64,000 nucleotides of DNA from Cytophagaceae bacterium (lineage in GTDB: Bacteria; Bacteroidota; Bacteroidia; Flavobacteriales; Flavobacteriaceae): assembly GCA_002710685.1 (NCBI GenBank), contig PALD01000037.1, forward strand, positions 124,001 through 188,000, given 5' to 3'. The position numbers and the translations under genes are program-made. Of the stretch, positions 11,513 through 22,433 are shown piece by piece. Under the pieces are notes generated by a model. That model saw only the letters and a program-made list of their open reading frames with translations. It searched no databases and was not told the DNA's origin. How positions within the stretch are numbered: the first letter of the stretch is position 1; each line of letters starts with the position of its first letter.

Positions 11513-12307
11513 CTAGACGGATATGTTTTTAAATTTAACATTCTGGTTCATAAGATTCTCAATACTTCCCTTTTTAAAAACTTGGAGTTTGCCCTCCACA
11601 GTATAGTCAGTTACAGGAATTTTATGATTGTCACAATAATCTTTGACAAGGTTATAGAGCCTTTCGCTGTGGTCGAGATTGGGCAATGCCCAAAATTGGT
11701 CTTTAAAATAATCAGGGCTAAAATGATTGGGGTCGGGCGTATCCATCTTTTGTATATCGTGTTCCTTGCCCTTAAAGCTGAAATTATGATCTACTCCTAC
11801 AATATTTATAGATTTGGCTTTGAGATGGGTAGCGATTTGCATTGCATAAAAAGTTACAGTACATCCAGCTGAAATTTCTTTACTAATATCATCATGCAGT
11901 TTTTCATCATTTGAAAGGTTCACGAAAATAATATTCTTTCTTTTTTTTACTCCTAAGTACCATGCTCTAACCGGCAAAATTAGAATTGTTTCTGTTTTGT
12001 TGAAAAAATCTTTATTCTGGCTCAATACAAGACCATTTACGCAGGCAATAATATCGGGTCTCCAGTCTGTTTTATCATAAATCAAGTTTATTTTATTCAT
12101 CCCTATGGATACCATATGAATCTTACTCAACGGAGTCTGATTAAGACTAGGGCCATTACCTACAACCAAAATATCTTTTTCAAAAAAAGGTTGAAGTATT
12201 GACCATTGATTTGACCTTTTAAGGAACCAGGCAAAGATTAAGTTATCTAAAACCTTGCGGGGTAGATATGTCGACTTACGTACTATATCTAAGATTTTCT
12301 CCCTCAT
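11513..12307 (-). CDS. DUF115/MptE-like protein of a polysaccharide cluster (possible glycosyltransferase)
   Basis: A 264-residue soluble protein. It has an early DILVVGNGPSLNQTPL (45-60), a later ISAGCTVTFYAMQIATHLKAKSINIVGVDHNF stretch split here by residues and an acidic loop ending in HFSPDYF. This GNGPSL ... G-x-D arrangement is that of the DUF115/MptE-like fold, which is related to GT42 sialyltransferases such as CstII and to flagellin-modifying Maf enzymes. In a cluster that also has a NeuA-like cytidylyltransferase, transfer from a CMP-sugar is an attractive but unproven guess. Its start overlaps the end of the upstream membrane protein gene by 32 bp. Confidence 0.65.
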   Translation of the reverse strand: MREKILDIVRKSTYLPRKVLDNLIFAWFLKRSNQWSILQPFFEKDILVVGNGPSLNQTPLSKIHMVSIGMNKINLIYDKTDWRPDIIACVNGLVLSQNKDFFNKTETILILPVRAWYLGVKKRKNIIFVNLSNDEKLHDDISKEISAGCTVTFYAMQIATHLKAKSINIVGVDHNFSFKGKEHDIQKMDTPDPNHFSPDYFKDQFWALPNLDHSERLYNLVKDYCDNHKIPVTDYTVEGKLQVFKKGSIENLMNQNVKFKNISV

Positions 12308-13478
12308 TTAATTTTCTTGTTGTAACAATAGCAATTATACCTATAAAAAATAATGTTGCCTCAAAGGAGTAAAATGTAGGGATAGACTCTGTGGCGCCAA
12401 ATATTATGATAGCAATAATCAAATACAGAATAATCCGGTTCTTGTATGCATAACTCCATTGAACCAACTGTTGCATGCCCAATATAAAAAAAACTAGTCC
12501 TATAACACCAAAATCTATCAAGTATTGAAAAATAAAATTATGAGAGGTTTGAAGGCTTTGATCCTTAAATTCAGTCAGTATGTTTCTTGGCAGGTTATTC
12601 TCTAACCCATTTAAACCGTATCCCGAAATAAAATGCCAGTCATGGAATATTACCTCAATCGATATTTTCCAAATCTGAATCCTATCAATGAATTTTGAAT
12701 CTGACTCCCCCGGTCTCTTTAAAAATTCAAAAATATCAGTAGAATAAAATACAATTAAAACTAGGCTCAAAGTTGAAATTACTAAAATCCAGTATCTTTT
12801 AATAAGCACTATTAAGTGATAGAAAGAAATTAATATCGATATACTGAAAATAAAAGTTATAAAAAGGACTAGGCGAGAATCAGCTAGCACTAGTAAATAG
12901 AAATGCAGGAGTCCTAGGAACCCATAGAACAGTTTTAGTTTTAAATCTTTTGAGCTTTTAATAAAATAAGCTACTAATATAGTACATAACCCTATTTGAG
13001 CTGTATTGATATTTGCACCACTTGCTAACGGAAAGTAAACCCTATATCCATAAATACCAAATGCCTTCATAATGGAATTGATGCCCAATGGAATATCAGC
13101 ATAATACATTTCATAAATTACTAGGTTTGTTACATTGTAGATAAGGAAAGAGTAGAGTAGATATCTTAAACAGTAATTTAATGACCTATTCCAGAATTTA
13201 GAGCAGGTATAAAAAAACCAAAGAAAATAAGCCGTTATAACCGCGACGTCGCGCAAATTGAGTTTACTGAGCCATACCGTGTGAATGAATAGTATAATAC
13301 TCAGTCCAAGTGCTCCCAGAACAATGTATAGGAGATATCCTATAGTCCTGCTTTTTCCTAAAAAATTTATAGTTATGGAAAATAATAAAAAACCAATCAA
13401 CAGCAAGAAAGCAAATATTTTACTCTTGCCCTCTAAGTAGGCTATTAGTCGTAAAAGTAATACATATAAATAACTCAT
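12276..13478 (-). CDS. O-antigen polymerase (Wzy)-like membrane protein
   Basis: A 400-residue protein with about eleven hydrophobic segments and a periplasmic loop late in the chain (around FHDWHFISGYGLNGLENN and SHNFIFQYLIDFGVIGL). The second stretch resembles the H-containing motif of the O-antigen ligase/polymerase (Wzy_C) superfamily. ATG at 13478 is chosen because it overlaps the flippase stop in an ATGA arrangement; an in-frame ATG at 13556 lies well inside the flippase gene. It is strongly AT-rich compared with flanking core genes. Likely polymerises lipid-linked repeat units at the periplasmic face. Confidence 0.7.
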   Translation of the reverse strand: MSYLYVLLLRLIAYLEGKSKIFAFLLLIGFLLFSITINFLGKSRTIGYLLYIVLGALGLSIILFIHTVWLSKLNLRDVAVITAYFLWFFYTCSKFWNRSLNYCLRYLLYSFLIYNVTNLVIYEMYYADIPLGINSIMKAFGIYGYRVYFPLASGANINTAQIGLCTILVAYFIKSSKDLKLKLFYGFLGLLHFYLLVLADSRLVLFITFIFSISILISFYHLIVLIKRYWILVISTLSLVLIVFYSTDIFEFLKRPGESDSKFIDRIQIWKISIEVIFHDWHFISGYGLNGLENNLPRNILTEFKDQSLQTSHNFIFQYLIDFGVIGLVFFILGMQQLVQWSYAYKNRIILYLIIAIIIFGATESIPTFYSFEATLFFIGIIAIVTTRKLNEGENLRYST

Positions 13479-14746
13479 GCTCTGGACTTTTTTAACCAAG
13501 CAAGGCAAGCAATACCCTGACAAAGCGGAAATATTATCATAATTCCAAATAACCAAATATTTTGATTCAATTTAAAGATTGGTAAAACAATTAATATCAA
13601 TAAAGAAAGATATTGTATTATTAAAAACCTGTTGATTCTAGGGAATTTATTGTTATATATAAAAATGTAAATCAAAGGTTGAAAAATTGAAAAAATGAAA
13701 CCAGTAATTGCTACCCACCAAAGCAAATGAGAAAATTCTTCAAATTTTGGGAATGTCCAACGGATTAAATCCTCATTCAAAACACCAAAAATTAAGGCTG
13801 CAACGATTATGACAGGGGAAAGTATATAGATGATGGACAAGTAAATTTTCTTCACCACCTTTTTTGTAAAATGTGTTGCCCTATGCAAAACAATCTTTGA
13901 TTGAAGCCCAGAAATTACAGCAAGAGTCAAAATTGAAAAAATGTTGAAAAATTGAATCATTACATGAGCATAGCTTACAAAGAGCACCCCAAAGAAAATT
14001 TTACCGAGATATCGTACTGCAAAATTATAAATTACCTCCCCACTGCGTAATAGAGTATATCTAAAGCCCATCTTAAAATCATCATAGCTTAAATGCGAAC
14101 GTAAAATTCTTATTTGAGAAAAAGAGACATTGAATTTTTTTTTAAACGCTAGAAGCGAAATCAAACTGGCTATAACTAATGATGAAGTTATCGCTAGGAC
14201 CACTGAATCAAATGATGAAGAGTGAAGGGTCATTGCAATAAATAGGAATAATATTATAATTAAATTCAAAATAAAATCCTCTAAAAATATTGAGAGCCTA
14301 ACACTATTATCCACTTTTGAAACTTCCGCTATAATCCTAATTATTATCAATCCCGCCGCAGAAAGCGTCAAAAGTATTGCCGTGTAAAATGAATTAAACA
14401 ATAATACCGTAGCGGGAAAGAATAAAACCGAAAAAGCAATATAAGTGATAATCGAGTTGTCAATCAGTTTTTCTGGGAGCCTAGATTCGTTAAGAATGGT
14501 CTTTCGGGCTTCTTTAAAATAGAGAATATAAAAATTGTTAGATCCAAAAAAAGTATATAGCCTTAACAGAGACCAGAATATGGCATAGTTTGCAAACCCT
14601 TCAATAGACATGTAATAAGCTAGAAGCATCTGGATAAGAAAAAATATTCCTTTTCCCAAAGATTTTCCTACGAGATTTTGAAAACCAAGGTTTTGCACCA
14701 CTCGTTGCCGTATGATAACACCCGCCTTATTTATTATTCTCGCCAT
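13475..14746 (-). CDS. Polysaccharide flippase (Wzx/MATE-type)
   Basis: A 423-residue protein with about twelve hydrophobic segments evenly spread and short loops, the usual layout of Wzx-type flippases of the MOP superfamily. It opens with a short amphipathic region and a first membrane segment (GKGIFFLIQMLLAYYMSIEG). It would move undecaprenyl-linked repeat units to the periplasmic side. The stop overlaps the start of the Wzy-like gene (ATGA), so these two steps are translationally coupled. Sequence motifs are weak in this family, so the call rests on topology, size and place. Confidence 0.75.
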   Translation of the reverse strand: MARIINKAGVIIRQRVVQNLGFQNLVGKSLGKGIFFLIQMLLAYYMSIEGFANYAIFWSLLRLYTFFGSNNFYILYFKEARKTILNESRLPEKLIDNSIITYIAFSVLFFPATVLLFNSFYTAILLTLSAAGLIIIRIIAEVSKVDNSVRLSIFLEDFILNLIIILFLFIAMTLHSSSFDSVVLAITSSLVIASLISLLAFKKKFNVSFSQIRILRSHLSYDDFKMGFRYTLLRSGEVIYNFAVRYLGKIFFGVLFVSYAHVMIQFFNIFSILTLAVISGLQSKIVLHRATHFTKKVVKKIYLSIIYILSPVIIVAALIFGVLNEDLIRWTFPKFEEFSHLLWWVAITGFIFSIFQPLIYIFIYNNKFPRINRFLIIQYLSLLILIVLPIFKLNQNIWLFGIMIIFPLCQGIACLAWLKKSRA

Positions 14747-14760
14747 CTATTTTTTAATCA

Positions 14761-16578
14761 TTAACCGGATGCATTCAAATTTTTCCAATAATATTGTTGT
14801 GAAGAGATAGTAATTATAATAATAATAGTAAACATCATCATTCCATACTGTCTTAAAAGGATATTCTCAGAAAGAAAGTTGACGGCAAAAATCAGTGTCG
14901 ATGAAATAACTAAAAATGATTTTACAAAATATCCTATATAGAACATTCTATAAAGAACTATTATGAAGAAAATTAAACAAATTATACCCCCTGAAAGCCA
15001 AATGTATAAATAGGTATTATGTGAATTGAGATTATTATCCATTGCATATTTAAGCAACTCTCCTTCACTTTGTCCGTAAGGTTTAAGTTCACCCTCCTCT
15101 AGTTGTATTCCCCATGTATAAAATTTATCATTCTCAATTCCTTTTGAGTTATAATCCAGAGGGCTAGTGGAATAACCTACAAGACATAATTCTTTTTGTT
15201 TTTTTGGAATAATGGTTAAGGAAAAACGAAACCAATCATGACCTATCTGGGTGCTGCTAATTTTCAGGATGTCCATTCCCTTATATGAAACCTTCCCATC
15301 TGATAAACAAAAATTAGCCCTGCCTGCAGCTATATTCCCTATGCGAAGTGTAAGAAAGCCAGTGTCTTTTCTTTTGGCAAAAGCCGAAAGAGTATATTTT
15401 TTTTCCTTCTCAAAATGCTGAATCTGATATATATGATGTGCACCATATGCAGTGTCAATTGCTATTGCTCTTACATGGCCTTTTAATAATGGCCCAAGGG
15501 TGCTTTCATCAAGATAAGGGTGGAGGCCAGCTTTATACCAAGAGTCAAAATTGAAATCTTCACTATAGTCAATAAGATTTACATTGTCTTTCCCTAAGGT
15601 TGATAAATCATATTTAGTTTTGTATGCTTGTTGCAGTTTGTCCTGTACGTCTCCTATACCTACCCCAAAGAATGGATTTTGCAAACCTACCCGTATTGAT
15701 GCTTCAAATGTTTCTTTTCTAGGATCATCAAGTTTTACAAGATTATCGCTCAATATTGAGGAAAAAAAATTCACACCCCTCTTAAAATCACTTCCGTTTT
15801 GAAATTTAATCCCACAGAAGAGAGAAAGAATTATAAGCGATAAGGCTGTAAGCAATCGTAGGTGAATTTGAAACTTTGAACTGAAAACGACATATATCAA
15901 TCCAAGTCCTAGCAAGATAATATTAGGTATAGAAGCCAGATACATTAAAGAGACTATGAAATATATAGAAACAATGAATAAGAGTATGTTGATAAAACGT
16001 GAAACCCCATTCATATAGGTTTGAAGAATAATTGTCAAGCAGATTAAAATATTCATAGATATATATGCCTTGTGAAGGAAGAAGGGCATAGGGTTTTGAG
16101 AAACCTCATAGTTCACATCAAATTTTAAGAAATGAAATAAAATATTAAAAAGACCTTTTGAACTTTCTGGGACAGTGTTTAAAATGTCATAAATAAGAGG
16201 TAGGGTACTTATTGTGTTAGAAAGAATAAATAATACCGAAAAGAGAAGGTAGCTCCATCTTGCTAATGAAAAATTACCTATATACATGAAAATGGGTATT
16301 ATAAAAATGGGAATGTATTTAATAGTGTCTTGAACGCCTATGGTTTTGTTTAAACTATAAAGGATGGAAACACCTATAATAAGGGGGCAAGTACAGAAGA
16401 AGAGGCTTTTTTTTAGCGTATTCCTGGAAATATTAAATCTAGAAAAGGAGGCTATGGTAAGTGCAACGATAAATGTGATTAAAAGTATAGAAGAATAATT
16501 GAACGGAAGCAAAGGAAAAATTCCTAAGGTACAAAAGAAGATTTGCGGGGATAGTCTTATGGCTCCTGATAAGTTCAA
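14761..16578 (-). CDS. O-antigen ligase/polymerase-like membrane protein with inserted beta-sandwich-like domain
   Basis: A 605-residue polytopic protein. TTG at 16578 overlaps the upstream stop codon (TTGA), which favours it over an in-frame ATG at 16623 buried in the dehydrogenase gene. The Wzy_C superfamily elements are visible: RVGLQNPFFGVGIGDVQDKL before, and LNSHNTYLYIWLSGG after, a long periplasmic segment. Between them, where the family normally has a few tens of residues, sit about 170 residues (roughly 333-505) that read like a carbohydrate-binding or tail-fibre beta-sandwich: NLIDYSEDFNFDSWYKAG, KKYTLSAFAKR, HDWFRFSLTI and FYTWGIQLEEGELKPY. Four hydrophobic segments follow. Whether it is a ligase or polymerase is open. 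Confidence 0.75.
   Translation of the reverse strand: MNLSGAIRLSPQIFFCTLGIFPLLPFNYSSILLITFIVALTIASFSRFNISRNTLKKSLFFCTCPLIIGVSILYSLNKTIGVQDTIKYIPIFIIPIFMYIGNFSLARWSYLLFSVLFILSNTISTLPLIYDILNTVPESSKGLFNILFHFLKFDVNYEVSQNPMPFFLHKAYISMNILICLTIILQTYMNGVSRFINILLFIVSIYFIVSLMYLASIPNIILLGLGLIYVVFSSKFQIHLRLLTALSLIILSLFCGIKFQNGSDFKRGVNFFSSILSDNLVKLDDPRKETFEASIRVGLQNPFFGVGIGDVQDKLQQAYKTKYDLSTLGKDNVNLIDYSEDFNFDSWYKAGLHPYLDESTLGPLLKGHVRAIAIDTAYGAHHIYQIQHFEKEKKYTLSAFAKRKDTGFLTLRIGNIAAGRANFCLSDGKVSYKGMDILKISSTQIGHDWFRFSLTIIPKKQKELCLVGYSTSPLDYNSKGIENDKFYTWGIQLEEGELKPYGQSEGELLKYAMDNNLNSHNTYLYIWLSGGIICLIFFIIVLYRMFYIGYFVKSFLVISSTLIFAVNFLSENILLRQYGMMMFTIIIIITISSQQYYWKNLNASG
15064..15582 (-). other. Region encoding the inserted carbohydrate-binding-like domain
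   Basis: Approximate limits of the extra domain inside the O-antigen ligase/polymerase homologue. The order of motifs (opening N-L-x-x-Y-S-E-D-F...W, a YTLSAFAK strand, a W-x-R-x-S strand, closing W-G-x-Q-L-E-E-G) is the one I know from jelly-roll modules in phage tail proteins and family 4/9-type carbohydrate-binding modules. Fold is inferred from pattern only. Confidence 0.55.
15373..15388. repeat. Imperfect dispersed palindrome (TTTGGC-AAAA-GCCGAA)
   Basis: Variant copy with one mismatch inside the domain insertion; it encodes SAFAK on the gene strand, the same A-x-A-K context as other copies. Confidence 0.4.
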
Positions 16579-17522
16579 GAGATGGATTCTAGTGCATTGA
16601 TAGTGTTTTCTACCGCCATACACCCTTGTTTTTCTACACTTTGAAATGTTCTTGAGCCGATGTGAGGAGTGATAAGGATTTTAGGATTACCTAGAAATGG
16701 ATGATTAGGTGCTATAGGTTCTGTATCTAATACATCGGTTATATAACCTGATATGAAATTCTCTTCTATGGCTCGTAATATATCCATATTGTTGACAAGC
16801 TTACCTCTCGAGGTGTTGATGATCAGAAGGCCTTTTTTTGAAACTCTAAAAATATCCTGATTGAATACCTCATGGGTTTCAGGGGTTAGTGGTACATGTA
16901 GTGATATAATATCAACATTGCGTACTAGATTTTCTAGGTTTTTAGCTATGGCAAAATTTAAAATTTCACTATCAGTCTTTAAAGATGTATCATAAGGGTC
17001 GCAAACCGTAACATCAAAACCTAGTTGCAAACATTTTTTTGTAAATTCCTTACCCACATTACCATAGCCAAAAACCCCTATCTTTCTTCCCAAAATCTCA
17101 TTTCCAGTAATGCGCGCCCACTTGCCATTTTGTACTTCTTGATGCAAGAGATGAATATTTCTAGAAAAACAGAGTAACAGCCCAATTACATGTTCGGCAA
17201 CGGCATTTTGATTTACTCCTGGACAATTCAGGACCTTGATATCGTTTTTTTTTGCCTCTTCAAGATTTATAGAGTCAAGACCTACACCATATTTTGATAT
17301 TACCCTTAACCTTCCATTTGCACCTTTTTTAATAACATGGTCAGTATAGGCATCATCTCCACATATTACAGCATCAAATTCATGGATGATATCAATTAAC
17401 TCATCCTCTCTTAAGGGGCCTCGCATCTTTTCAATATCCCACCCTGTTTTATGAAGTAAGGTTTGATGCTTACCAGGTGTATCTTGAAAAGATGTTGATG
17501 TTAAAAGAATTTTTCTTTTCAT
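16575..17522 (-). CDS. D-isomer-specific 2-hydroxyacid dehydrogenase
   Basis: A 315-residue NAD-dependent dehydrogenase of the phosphoglycerate/lactate dehydrogenase family. The Rossmann motif GYGNVG is at 152-157; the catalytic triad is visible as R239 (NTSRGKLV), E268 (DVLDTEP) and H287 (TPHIGS). No C-terminal ACT domain is present, so it is not a full SerA. It interconverts a 2-keto acid and a D-2-hydroxy acid. Sitting between a keto-acid aldolase/HAD/cytidylyltransferase set and a polysaccharide membrane protein, it probably works on a sugar acid or on a small keto acid used as a glycan substituent. ATGA overlap with the upstream HAD gene. Confidence 0.85.
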   Translation of the reverse strand: MKRKILLTSTSFQDTPGKHQTLLHKTGWDIEKMRGPLREDELIDIIHEFDAVICGDDAYTDHVIKKGANGRLRVISKYGVGLDSINLEEAKKNDIKVLNCPGVNQNAVAEHVIGLLLCFSRNIHLLHQEVQNGKWARITGNEILGRKIGVFGYGNVGKEFTKKCLQLGFDVTVCDPYDTSLKTDSEILNFAIAKNLENLVRNVDIISLHVPLTPETHEVFNQDIFRVSKKGLLIINTSRGKLVNNMDILRAIEENFISGYITDVLDTEPIAPNHPFLGNPKILITPHIGSRTFQSVEKQGCMAVENTINALESIS

Positions 17523-19062: not shown

Positions 19063-19761
19063 TCAAGTATATATATGATTAAAAACTGCTTCTGCGATTA
19101 TGAAATTCTCAAGATTGTCAATATCCATTGATTCTAACTTTCCTATTTCAAATAAATAAGGGTTTAGACCTATTCTTCTGTTGCCAGCATTGTGAAATGA
19201 TTCTCGAGTAAATACATAAAAGTTAGAATTTTCTTCAAAAATTGGATCTAGGTCCTGTGTTCGTAAGAGGTTTGAAGGATTGTGGTTCATGGCTTTACCA
19301 TCAGAGTTGTAGAATCTAGACTGAAGCCGATTAACAGAAAATACAGAGTCATATTTAGAACACCCCATAAAAAAATCCAGAGCCTCATCAATCGTTTCTT
19401 GTCTAAGGTTGGGGTTTGTACTGTGAGTTTGGATGTAAATGTCCCCATCGGAATTATTGATATCCTGCTCAATAATTTTATTCATGGAGACATAATCCCC
19501 GCATATTGATGGGAGGCGTTTTACAATCCTAATGTTTTGGTTAGAAAAATGGCAGTTCACATTTTCCGCTATTTTAGCACTATCCGTATTGATAATAACC
19601 TCATCGATAAATTTGGATTGTAGAAGCTCTGTCAAAATATGATGATAAAGCGGCTTACCACTGAAAATCTTGAGATTTTTGTTTGGAATCCGTTCAGAAT
19701 TTCCCTTCATGGGAAGTAATGCAACAACTTTAGTTTTATTTTTCATAGCAGGGATTTTCAT
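19063..19761 (-). CDS. NeuA-like CMP-sugar cytidylyltransferase
   Basis: A 232-residue nucleotidyltransferase of the acylneuraminate cytidylyltransferase family. The N-terminal CTP-binding motif LPMKGNSERIPNKN (16-29) followed by SGKPLYHHIL is diagnostic, and HSTNPNLRQETI with LLRTQDLDP follow in family order. ATG at 19761, one base after the upstream stop, is preferred; an ATG at 19746 is an alternative and a longer reading to 19827 would overlap the Wzz-like gene. It activates a 2-keto sugar acid as its CMP derivative. No neuB/neuC/neuD or kdsA is present, so the substrate is not obviously sialic acid or Kdo. Confidence 0.8.
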   Translation of the reverse strand: MKIPAMKNKTKVVALLPMKGNSERIPNKNLKIFSGKPLYHHILTELLQSKFIDEVIINTDSAKIAENVNCHFSNQNIRIVKRLPSICGDYVSMNKIIEQDINNSDGDIYIQTHSTNPNLRQETIDEALDFFMGCSKYDSVFSVNRLQSRFYNSDGKAMNHNPSNLLRTQDLDPIFEENSNFYVFTRESFHNAGNRRIGLNPYLFEIGKLESMDIDNLENFIIAEAVFNHIYT

Positions 19762-19762
19762 T

Positions 19763-20734
19763 TTAGTTGTCAGCGGAATATTTTTTTGCCTTAAGATATA
19801 GTTTTTTTGCCAACTGATATGAAACATAGCAAAACAGGATTACAAAAGGAAGTAGCAAGACTTTATGACTTAATAAAGTTGAATCTTTTACTGAATAAGG
19901 ATTATTTGTAATCTGAAAAAGATTTTGCATTCTAAGGATTTCATTAGAAGTACCTTCATTTTCCCTTAATAAATCTGTTTTCTTTTGCAGTATTCCCCCT
20001 ATGTCAATACTATTAATTAGCATTAATTGACTGCTGCTGGGGGAATTGCTTGTCAATGCTTTATTCGTATTACTTAAAAAACTATCTATCTGCTTGATTG
20101 AGTAAATATTTTCCTCTATCCTATTTTTATATCTTGTAAGTGTATTTTCATTAATAGCTTTTAGATAGTTGTTTTGTTCTAGATGATCAAGTACTTTATT
20201 AGTAGCAAGGGTTCTGTTATTTGTTCCTGTATAAATTGTTAGGTAATGATATTGATATGACAAAAGAAAGCTTTCGGCTTCAAGAAAATCATTTTTTGTA
20301 TCGATTCTTTCAATTAGGCTTAGCACCTGATTATCATCATACTCCTTATATTTTTCTAGGACATCTGAGACGTTGACAATTGGTTTTATTTCAACTTCCT
20401 TTAAACTAAAATCTCCATCAAGTTCAATGCTCTTGAGAAACAAGGTGTCATTATTTTCTATCTTTTGATTCAAGTTGGATATTGCCTCATAAAGATAAGA
20501 GGTTGTTGCATTCGTCGAACGAATAATATAAACCGTCTTATATTTTGGACTAGAAAGTAAGTCAATGACAAAACCAATTATCAATCCTACAATTAATAAC
20601 AAGGCAATTATTTTTATCCTTTGAAGAAAAAAATAAATGAGTCTATATAATAATCCAAGCACATATTTAATACCGTTGCCGATTCTATTGAAAATTACAA
20701 ATAAATCAACCTCCTGATTTTCTTTTTGCTCCAT
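19763..20734 (-). CDS. Wzz-like chain-length or polysaccharide co-polymerase protein
   Basis: A 323-residue protein with a hydrophobic segment near residues 42-62 (KIIALLLIVGLIIGFVIDLL), a long periplasmic region rich in helix-forming and charged residues (about 65-285) and a second hydrophobic segment near the C-terminus (VLLLPFVILFCYVSYQL). This two-span layout is that of Wzz/PCP proteins. No C-terminal tyrosine kinase domain is attached. ATG at 20734 follows the stop of the DUF6909 gene by one base. It is the first gene of the AT-rich minus-strand polysaccharide operon and probably controls chain length. Confidence 0.65.
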   Translation of the reverse strand: MEQKENQEVDLFVIFNRIGNGIKYVLGLLYRLIYFFLQRIKIIALLLIVGLIIGFVIDLLSSPKYKTVYIIRSTNATTSYLYEAISNLNQKIENNDTLFLKSIELDGDFSLKEVEIKPIVNVSDVLEKYKEYDDNQVLSLIERIDTKNDFLEAESFLLSYQYHYLTIYTGTNNRTLATNKVLDHLEQNNYLKAINENTLTRYKNRIEENIYSIKQIDSFLSNTNKALTSNSPSSSQLMLINSIDIGGILQKKTDLLRENEGTSNEILRMQNLFQITNNPYSVKDSTLLSHKVLLLPFVILFCYVSYQLAKKLYLKAKKYSADN

Positions 20735-20735
20735 A

Positions 20736-22433
20736 CTAAGCTTCAAATATTTGTTCTAAGATTTTCTCTGTAATCAAATATGTGGGTTTAACACCCGTGG
20801 TTCCCAGACCGCCAGAAGCTAGAGTGCTTCCGGTTTCCAGTGGGTTGTCTGAGGCATAGTACGCATACCTTACCTTTACATCACTGCTTATGCTGCCCCT
20901 TAATTTGGCGGAAGCCTGAATAGCTTTTTGATAATGCGCGCCCTCCATCTCAAGACCGATTACGTCCCACGTACTTTCATGGAAGAATTTTAAGATATCA
21001 CGGTTTTGAAGCGATGTCCCCAATACCGTTATCATGGCCCCCTCATACACCTCTATGCCATTGCCCTCAAGGTCTTTTTTTGAAAGTTCATTGTCAAAGG
21101 GGTAATTGTCAGCCGTGCCCTCAAAGAGGTGCGCCTTGGGGATCATGATATCTCCTTTGCCGCCTTCTAGAATACCCGCTTTTCCCATTATCGATATACT
21201 CTTAACATCAAGATAGAATGTTTTTCTTCCGGAAAGGTAGGGTTTTAATAATTCTTCCATGGTTTCATACGCCTGTTCCCCAAAGGCGTAATCCATCACG
21301 ATGATTACGGGTTCTTTCCCTTTTTCAAAGGTTTTTGTGCAAAAGCTGTTTTGGGATACATCCAGTTGTGCCGTGTCAAAGACCTGGACATCGATGTTTG
21401 TGCCACTTTGATCTGGTATGAAGGTCATGCCATGCTTAACGGCAATTTTCTCTACCCGCGACCTCATTTTACCGCTACTGGAGTCGCTCAACAGCTCATA
21501 TATCTCCAGGTTTGACTTTTTTTCAAGTTCTTTTTGCAGGGCCACTGGCGCATAAAGCGTGTTCATCACGCTGTGCATGTTTGCGCTTATGATGTGCAGG
21601 GGCCTTTCTAGCAGGCCGTTTTTTTTCAAAATAGACTTGATGGTATCTGCCCATACCTCACCATGTATGTGGTGCCCCAGTCTTTCCCTGAGCACGGGCG
21701 AAAACGTGACAATGCGCTTATCGTTTTCCGCGACCTCCTCAATGGCCCTTTTGCCCAGCCAGTAGATGACCTCCAGGAACCTCTTTGGGTTGTTTGCCTG
21801 TGCAAATTTGCCCAGCATCTCATTCACCTCCCGAAAGGTCCTGCCCAATATATTGGCCGTATGTGTCAATGCAATCTCACGCGCGTTCTGCGTGAGTTCT
21901 TCTTCCTGGAGTACGGCCACCTCCAGTTTTTGCCAGTCACGGGTGGTGCTGCCATCTTCATTGATGATTACCCGCCGCGAAATCTTGTGCGATTCTATGA
22001 ACAAAAAGGTAAGGTGGGTGAGGATGTCATAGATCTCGCTCCGGCCCCTGGTGATTTCTATATTCATCTGTTCATCATCAATACGGTAGCAGTTCCTCCT
22101 CCTCTTTGGTGGCACGATGGGTGTAAAATGAGAGTCCTTATATCCTTCATCGCTGGTAAGGTTAATAAACTTACACTCTTCTATACCCTGTGGTAACCTG
22201 TCTATGACATAATGTAGGCCATAAAGCTCAACTTTTTCATCAGCAATGGTGCCATAGATCTCTGGCCTAAGGATCAAGAGTGCTTCACGCAGCGTTTCTC
22301 CACTTACGCCCATGGGTTTGTAAAAACCCCGGTTAAAGAGGTGGCGCATGGTGATGTACATCCTTTCTATCGCGGCCGAACTTTCTTGCGCGCGCGTCCT
22401 TCCGGTATCTTTATTCATGCTCATATCGCCCAA
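20736..22433 (-). CDS. DUF6909 family protein
   Basis: A 565-residue soluble protein of a conserved Bacteroidota family of unknown function (I recall it as DUF6909). There is no signal peptide or membrane segment. The C-terminal part contains DVIGLEMEGAHYQKAI preceded by MITVLGTSLQNRD and followed by VRYAYYASDNP, which resembles the substrate site of nucleoside phosphorylases (MExA motif) and suggests a nucleoside- or sugar-phosphate-binding fold. It starts with M1 or M5. It is co-directional with and 12 bp after the GH3 gene. It belongs to the core chromosome and borders the polysaccharide cluster. Confidence 0.65.
   Translation of the reverse strand: MGDMSMNKDTGRTRAQESSAAIERMYITMRHLFNRGFYKPMGVSGETLREALLILRPEIYGTIADEKVELYGLHYVIDRLPQGIEECKFINLTSDEGYKDSHFTPIVPPKRRRNCYRIDDEQMNIEITRGRSEIYDILTHLTFLFIESHKISRRVIINEDGSTTRDWQKLEVAVLQEEELTQNAREIALTHTANILGRTFREVNEMLGKFAQANNPKRFLEVIYWLGKRAIEEVAENDKRIVTFSPVLRERLGHHIHGEVWADTIKSILKKNGLLERPLHIISANMHSVMNTLYAPVALQKELEKKSNLEIYELLSDSSSGKMRSRVEKIAVKHGMTFIPDQSGTNIDVQVFDTAQLDVSQNSFCTKTFEKGKEPVIIVMDYAFGEQAYETMEELLKPYLSGRKTFYLDVKSISIMGKAGILEGGKGDIMIPKAHLFEGTADNYPFDNELSKKDLEGNGIEVYEGAMITVLGTSLQNRDILKFFHESTWDVIGLEMEGAHYQKAIQASAKLRGSISSDVKVRYAYYASDNPLETGSTLASGGLGTTGVKPTYLITEKILEQIFEA

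Follow-up and report, generated by a model that had tools for sequence, protein, structure and literature searches.

We found that a membrane protein of the Wzy_C type, encoded in the 64,000-nucleotide stretch of DNA analysed here (the window), carries an inserted module between two of its conserved residues, and that this module is recognizable, by family score and profile, as a known domain of phage and gene-transfer-agent particles, a step beyond an earlier sequence-only reading of the same DNA. The explanation we favor, with a probability of about 0.57, is that the module would serve as an internal glycan clamp next to the active site of a surface-polysaccharide enzyme of the Wzy_C class, which, as predicted from its homology, may be either a polymerase or a ligase. 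The gene and its parts lie at the following positions in the window:

14761..16578, minus strand: Wzy_C-type membrane protein with inserted module, 605 aa, TTG start
15718..15720, minus strand: Arg287, conserved in 43 of 43 aligned proteins
15649..15678, minus strand: NPFFGVGIGD, first hallmark motif, residues 301-310
15091..15582, minus strand: inserted module, residues 333-496, located by module profile (NF048003, beta sandwich)
14998..15024, minus strand: SHNTYLYIW, residues 519-527, including His520, conserved in 43 of 43 aligned proteins

A single frame without stops runs across enzyme and insert. The longest open reading frame (16623-14761, minus strand) has a GTG start and 620 aa; the TTG at 16578 is probably the true start, because it overlaps the stop of the upstream gene and because the 605-aa frame aligns to the starts of its relatives. 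The sequence-only reading had placed a carbohydrate-binding-like domain in this protein at 15064-15582, bounded by the two hallmark motifs, and our module profile located it very close to that and between the same motifs; the extra residues it had counted are also present, with its figure of about 170 being slightly low and about 180 fitting better. The insert is not a chance resemblance, since its match to the NCBIfam model NF048003 (E 5.1e-15) lies above the cut-off and the same insert occurs in six assemblies.

The enzyme body and the length of its loop

Searching the uncut protein with PF04932 gave a split match of 22.1 bits, below the cut-off of 31.7 (28.6 bits in a second search, also below), and among three insert-bearing relatives two passed, G090 at 33.5 and G328 at 35.4 (neighbours included in the frame), with no match at the insert-bearing place in G170. 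Because the uncut protein falls below this cut-off, we call it a homologue of Wzy_C proteins, on the basis of the homology of its body and of its conserved Arg and His. A profile of 39 insert-free relatives matched the 605-aa protein over residues 12-334 and again over 486-595, for a total of 192.6 bits, and the enzyme tree placed it among O-antigen ligase/polymerase proteins, in agreement with the earlier assignment to that group. The same profile matched the WaaL structure 7TPG (E 2e-13), with an Arg and the conserved His aligned, as well as the oligosaccharyltransferase 9rmk (5e-12), and R287 and H520 are identical in all 43 aligned rows; the conserved Arg traced here is one of two Arg named in PMC10920833. 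Folding of the whole protein produced a model of middling confidence (pLDDT 63.4, pTM 0.56) with an all-beta block at about residues 352-495, which at that confidence fixes no orientation of the module relative to the active site, and a fold search with this model returned WaaL (7tpg_B) at rank 44, with a probability of 0.99 and a TM of 0.44 by target length, at an E value reaching only 0.12.

Counted from the first Gly of the first motif, the conserved His lies 22-39 residues away in 40 of the 43 aligned proteins and 209-216 away in the three insert-bearing rows, with 216 in the 605-aa protein. This alignment comprises 39 insert-free proteins (those used for alignments and profile out of 47 insert-free frames listed), the protein of locus L172, in which the module sits elsewhere, and three of the six insert-bearing proteins. 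An earlier set of 36 frames, one of which is not a Wzy_C protein, had given 28-53 residues from motif to motif in 31 insert-free frames and 224-227 in four insert-bearing ones. Most of the family members compared lack the insert, as the sequence-only reading had supposed, and a loop of equal length is not the rule among them; judged from these alignments, the insert-bearing loop is unusual for the Wzy_C family, and the module it holds presumably lies in the periplasm.

Family and fold of the module

Family searches connected the insert to phage particle proteins, with NF048003, the "phage head spike fiber domain", scoring 56.5 bits against a cut-off of 36 (52.4 bits with the whole protein as query) and a PHROGs tail protein family matching at 1.2e-10. 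Compared with PDB sequences, a profile of the six inserts matched residues 82-256 of Rcc01080, the RcGTA head spike fibre (6tb9_F3), at 1.2e-15, with further matches to two phage baseplate proteins (1.3e-10) and a tail fibre protein (0.0021), and the match to Rcc01080 rose to 3e-41 once 21 viral relatives joined the profile. VirA chains returned by a single-sequence PDB search of the insert (E 0.16 and worse) were set aside as chance, the profile searches having given Rcc01080 instead. No Pfam family matched the insert up to E 10, and CBM_4_9 appeared at 0.0039, below its cut-off, in one clustered module relative.

AlphaFold2 modelled the isolated insert, from 27 sequences, with strands only (pLDDT 88.6, pTM 0.86) and with neither membrane helices nor disorder, so that the jelly-roll suspected from the letters is borne out as a beta sandwich of a kind frequent in glycan-binding proteins. 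Among solved structures, its nearest fold neighbours are two phage baseplate proteins, one from Pa193 (Z 19.0, 2.9 A, 175 residues) and one from E217 (Z 16.6), followed at Z 11-12 by an alginate-binding module and CBM61, CBM4 and CBM16 modules, with CBM22 entries within Z 10-12. The list also holds entries whose names do not mark them as sugar-binding modules, such as insecticidal Cry proteins, and several glycosidases (Z 10-11), and a fold shared with carbohydrate-binding modules is no proof of function. Given a CBM-like beta sandwich and no CBM match in Pfam, we describe the insert as resembling a CBM in fold, not as a member of a CBM family. Seven residues (W19, P35, S70, K74, F95, W121 and Q164) are invariant across the 27 module sequences.

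Gene neighbourhood

The insert-bearing gene stands in a cluster that looks like a repeat-unit polysaccharide cluster, listed here in cluster order with the insert-bearing gene falling between the dehydrogenase and the flippase-like gene:

19763..20746, minus strand: Wzz-like chain length determinant (20.1 bits, below the cut-off of 25.5)
19063..19827, minus strand: cytidylyltransferase (CTP_transf_3), homologues in L039 and L040, partial in L047
18271..19059, minus strand: HpcH/HpaI aldolase-like protein, homologue in L039 and L040
17519..18166, minus strand: HAD phosphatase-like protein, homologue in five other loci
16578..17522, minus strand: D-2-hydroxyacid dehydrogenase, homologue adjoining the insert-bearing gene in five other loci
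13475..14746, minus strand: multi-spanning membrane protein, flippase-like by eye, homologues in L039, L040 and L047
12276..13556, minus strand: second Wzy_C protein, without insert (PF04932, 7.3e-14), homologues in L039, L040 and L047
11513-12307: MptE-like domain protein, homologues in three other loci

A bacterial sugar transferase and a family 2 glycosyltransferase follow after the MptE-like gene, which we assume may encode a glycosyltransferase of the GNGPSL type. Homologues of the flippase-like, second Wzy_C and MptE-like proteins were present in all three of the other insert-bearing loci with enough sequence (L039, L040 and L047), and that of the aldolase in two of the three, none having been found in L047 (the available sequence of L046 and L050 stops short of this gene). 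The flippase-like protein had no Pfam match. A CMP-activated sugar is probably involved in this cluster. Across the genome, whose relatives indicate a member of the Flavobacteriaceae, there are seven PF04932 matches, five of them outside this cluster.

Distribution and history of the insert

Five further assemblies carry the same insert at the same place, making six in all:

L047: Polaribacter MAG
L048 and L049: Flaviramulus
L050 (JAUZQJ010000008.1): 5 kb contig filed under Mariprofundus
L051: Flavobacteriaceae MAG

Most of the named carriers are metagenome-assembled genomes. The L050 gene groups with Flaviramulus sequences in the enzyme tree, perhaps through a binning error or transfer. The full insert-bearing protein was found in at least 4 of the 397 genomes of the family sample, its own included, and the three matches outside its own genome are the same records as L048, L049 and L051; at most three candidates were scored per genome in the family and phylum samples, such that further carriers may be missed. 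Neither of two genomes from the same genus matched the insert-bearing protein in the family-sample search, as expected given that surface polysaccharide genes are variable. A full-length profile at E 1e-6 recovered only the protein itself as a full-length match in the phylum sample of 395 genomes (again with at most three candidates each), the order sample gave four matches outside the protein's own genome with no Wzy_C fusions by reading, and the class sample gave seven matches in six other genomes, in frames of 1454-4547 aa; these wider samples are draws from a larger group and partly overlap. Plasmids gave no match at E 1e-3. Thirty phage records gave weak matches, all of them cyanophage by name (E 3e-3 to 9e-3 among the 25 records listed), and module relatives were found on viral contigs at 45 loci.

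With the module residues cut out, a tree of 54 enzymes revealed the six insert-bearing proteins as one clade (100/98). Their inserts are 28-66% identical, and the mean pairwise identity over 15 pairs is 43.2% for the insert and 40.7% for the body, which indicates that both parts have been held to a like degree and that the insert diverges no faster, a pattern compatible with any function of the module. At the level of sequence comparison, these proteins show a single origin and long retention of the insert. Unlike their proteins in the enzyme tree, the six inserts were not recovered as one clade in the module tree, which neither supported nor refuted a phage origin of the Wzy inserts.

Other proteins carrying the module

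Matches to the module profile occurred in 44 of the 397 genomes of the family sample, and in five of these the module resides in Wzy_C-type frames, namely four insert-bearing proteins and L172:6338-8047 (genome G133). In the L172 protein the module occupies residues 145-307, ahead of a complete Wzy_C match at 367-507, and lies in an earlier loop, before the conserved HPTYYS motif; the protein falls outside the clade of six in the enzyme tree, though on long branches, and apparently represents an independent fusion into a different loop.

In 8 of the 44 module-bearing genomes, the module is encoded by a separate gene no more than 12 kb from a Wzy_C gene. Counted by frame, a PF04932 match was found within 15 kb (at 3.4-11.4 kb) for 8 of the 41 unfused frames that bear the module, vs about 1.3 expected, with a rough Poisson P of 6e-5 that ignores kinship between genomes. 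This unselected count is the one to be read, the size classes having been drawn after the matches were seen (all 8 come from 16 middling frames, with none among 15 frames of 709-791 aa or 10 giant ones). For the remaining 33 of the 41, including the 15 of 709-791 residues and the 10 giant frames, no Wzy_C match turned up at a distance of 15 kb or less. Nor are the clustered modules independent of one another: a single clade (100/99) contains seven of the eight, plus one module located away from any Wzy_C gene, and the figure of eight therefore overstates the number of separate events. Judged by eye, the eight comprise six proteins of 205-219 residues that begin like lipoproteins, an SGNH-like protein and a CotH-like protein; they are listed here with a further CotH-like one:

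L164:5177-5812, L165:4636-5283, L166:4836-5450, L167:9645-10301, L169:8382-9035, L174:6690-7340: lipoprotein-like module genes, 3-12 kb from a Wzy_C gene
L168:9375-10934: module at the C-terminus of an SGNH-like protein, less than 5 kb from a Wzy_C match
L170:9481-11331: module at the C-terminus of a CotH-like protein, less than 5 kb from a Wzy_C match
L175:6380-8212: module at the C-terminus of a second CotH-like protein, not within that distance

No Pfam family matched the SGNH-like or CotH-like proteins. We also saw a module-like domain at the C-terminus of two proteins that are OstA/LptA-like by eye (L130:1189-3204 and L131:1-1920); module frames of 709-791 residues occur in 15 family-sample genomes, and the OstA/LptA-like label comes from the two that were read. 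The labels SGNH-like, CotH-like, OstA/LptA-like, flippase-like and lipoprotein-like are our presumptive ones, given on reading the sequences.

What the module may do

Our proposal builds on the documented homology of both parts, on the position of the module between the conserved residues, on the single origin and long retention of the insert, on the second fusion and on the partial clustering of module and Wzy_C genes. The long, probably outer-face loop of the enzyme carries the conserved Arg and His, and a complete module of the phage-head-spike type is spliced between those residues, where it would grip the glycan that its own cluster makes, either as lipid-linked repeat unit or as growing chain. 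A glycan held next to the conserved Arg and His would give a higher local concentration of the right acceptor, and this holding would help to set specificity or processivity. Binding of sugar by the insert, the choice of glycan and an effect on catalysis are what the proposal predicts. Speaking against it are the modest capsule effect on binding of the RcGTA fibre, described below, the entries other than sugar-binding modules in the fold list, the Pfam score below cut-off and the 33 unfused module frames away from Wzy_C genes.

The enzyme could also be a ligase or a side-chain transferase whose module recognizes the final acceptor (lipid A-core or another glycan) and not the growing chain, which we consider possible although we would bet against it, and which is compatible with a glycan clamp, the two not being exclusive. 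With a second Wzy_C protein in the cluster (12276-13556), polymerase and transferase roles may be split between the two, and the solved relatives by sequence are the ligase WaaL and the oligosaccharyltransferase 9rmk; however, the place in a repeat-unit cluster fits a polymerase, and one of the five further PF04932 matches outside the cluster may be the usual ligase.

That the module is instead a docking domain, binding a protein partner such as the Wzz-like co-polymerase, the flippase, the second Wzy_C protein or an outer-membrane exporter, we find unlikely. Proteins can be ligands of such beta sandwiches, several neighbouring genes are conserved together with the insert-bearing one, and the invariant module residues could be structural only, but the module also occurs with unrelated partners (lipoprotein-like, SGNH-like and CotH-like proteins, Wzy_C enzymes in two loops and phage particles), for which a shared kind of sugar target is simpler than a shared protein partner. 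Distinctly improbable, in our judgement, is a passenger domain tolerated in a permissive loop with no catalytic role: loops tolerate insertions and the domain is common on viral contigs (the 45 loci above), yet it has been kept open at the same place in six assemblies, with inserts 28-66% identical and changing at a pace equal to that of the enzyme, and it was fused a second time, into a different loop, in L172. An assembly or gene-calling artefact joining two genes, for which one could cite a draft genome of 80 contigs with 8.8% estimated contamination, is practically negligible given one stop-free frame and the same layout in five other assemblies with the same dehydrogenase and HAD neighbours.

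Relation to known systems

Set against WaaL (7TPG) and the PF04932 proteins, the enzyme is alike in the profile match of its body and in the aligned Arg and His, and differs in its module of 164 residues, the corresponding stretch being short in WaaL and in 40 of the 43 aligned proteins. The arabinosyltransferase EmbC, also a membrane glycosyltransferase, contains a lectin-like sugar-binding module, but it belongs to a different enzyme family and carries the module at its C-terminus, whereas the one described here lies inside the catalytic loop. The RcGTA fibre Rcc01080, with NF048003, has the same domain as the insert by profile and family score, but there the domain serves a virus-like particle that is thought to attach to the capsule externally, while the insert sits inside a membrane enzyme. 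In the accessible part of the report on this fibre, the tagged protein bound about 1.6-fold more to one strain when that strain carried a capsule cosmid, and the same strain without the cosmid still bound it, at a level between wild type and complemented strain (PMC10218006); the capsule effect is modest, and these data are for the whole fibre, not mapped to the NF048003-type domain.

A near parallel in function is the jellyroll of Wzc at the periplasmic membrane face, which was reported in 2026 to recognize capsule repeat units for Wzy and the deletion of which nearly abolished capsule production (PMC12881504). It is likened here by function alone, and it belongs to the co-polymerase Wzc, whereas the insert is within the enzyme. 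The carbohydrate-binding module of Wzt, described in PMC9445017 and PMC11127046, is likewise a sugar-binding module on a polysaccharide assembly machine, as proposed for the insert; unlike the insert, it is on the nucleotide-binding subunit of an O-antigen ABC transporter and reads a chain-end modification. WadA, a ligase of the same class, also has an extra domain, with GT25 joined to a GT121 O-antigen ligase, but there the addition is an appended catalytic glycosyltransferase and not a binding module in a loop (PMC10920833). We found no description of a Wzy_C enzyme with a carbohydrate-binding-type module in its loop in the accessible portion of the open-licence literature; each of the two parts was already known by itself.

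Implications

At a broader level, flavobacteria may rely on one sugar-binding module, found also in phage particle proteins, as a general means of recognition that is built into their own polysaccharide clusters in various formats (Wzy_C enzymes in two loops, lipoprotein-like, SGNH-like and CotH-like proteins), such that each copy would read the glycan of its cluster, the polymerase would sense its own product, and phage and host would read the same coat; we offer this tentatively and hold it to be rather doubtful as a whole.

For the enzyme itself, to our knowledge it is still largely open how Wzy-type polymerases recognize the right acceptor and control chain length. The insert-bearing protein would offer, within one protein, a way to eliminate, exchange or mutate acceptor binding while leaving the catalytic core intact, and its insert-free relatives would be natural controls. 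If the module reads the glycan of its cluster, it would be a ready-made probe for that glycan, and it would link polysaccharide assembly in the host to phage adsorption.
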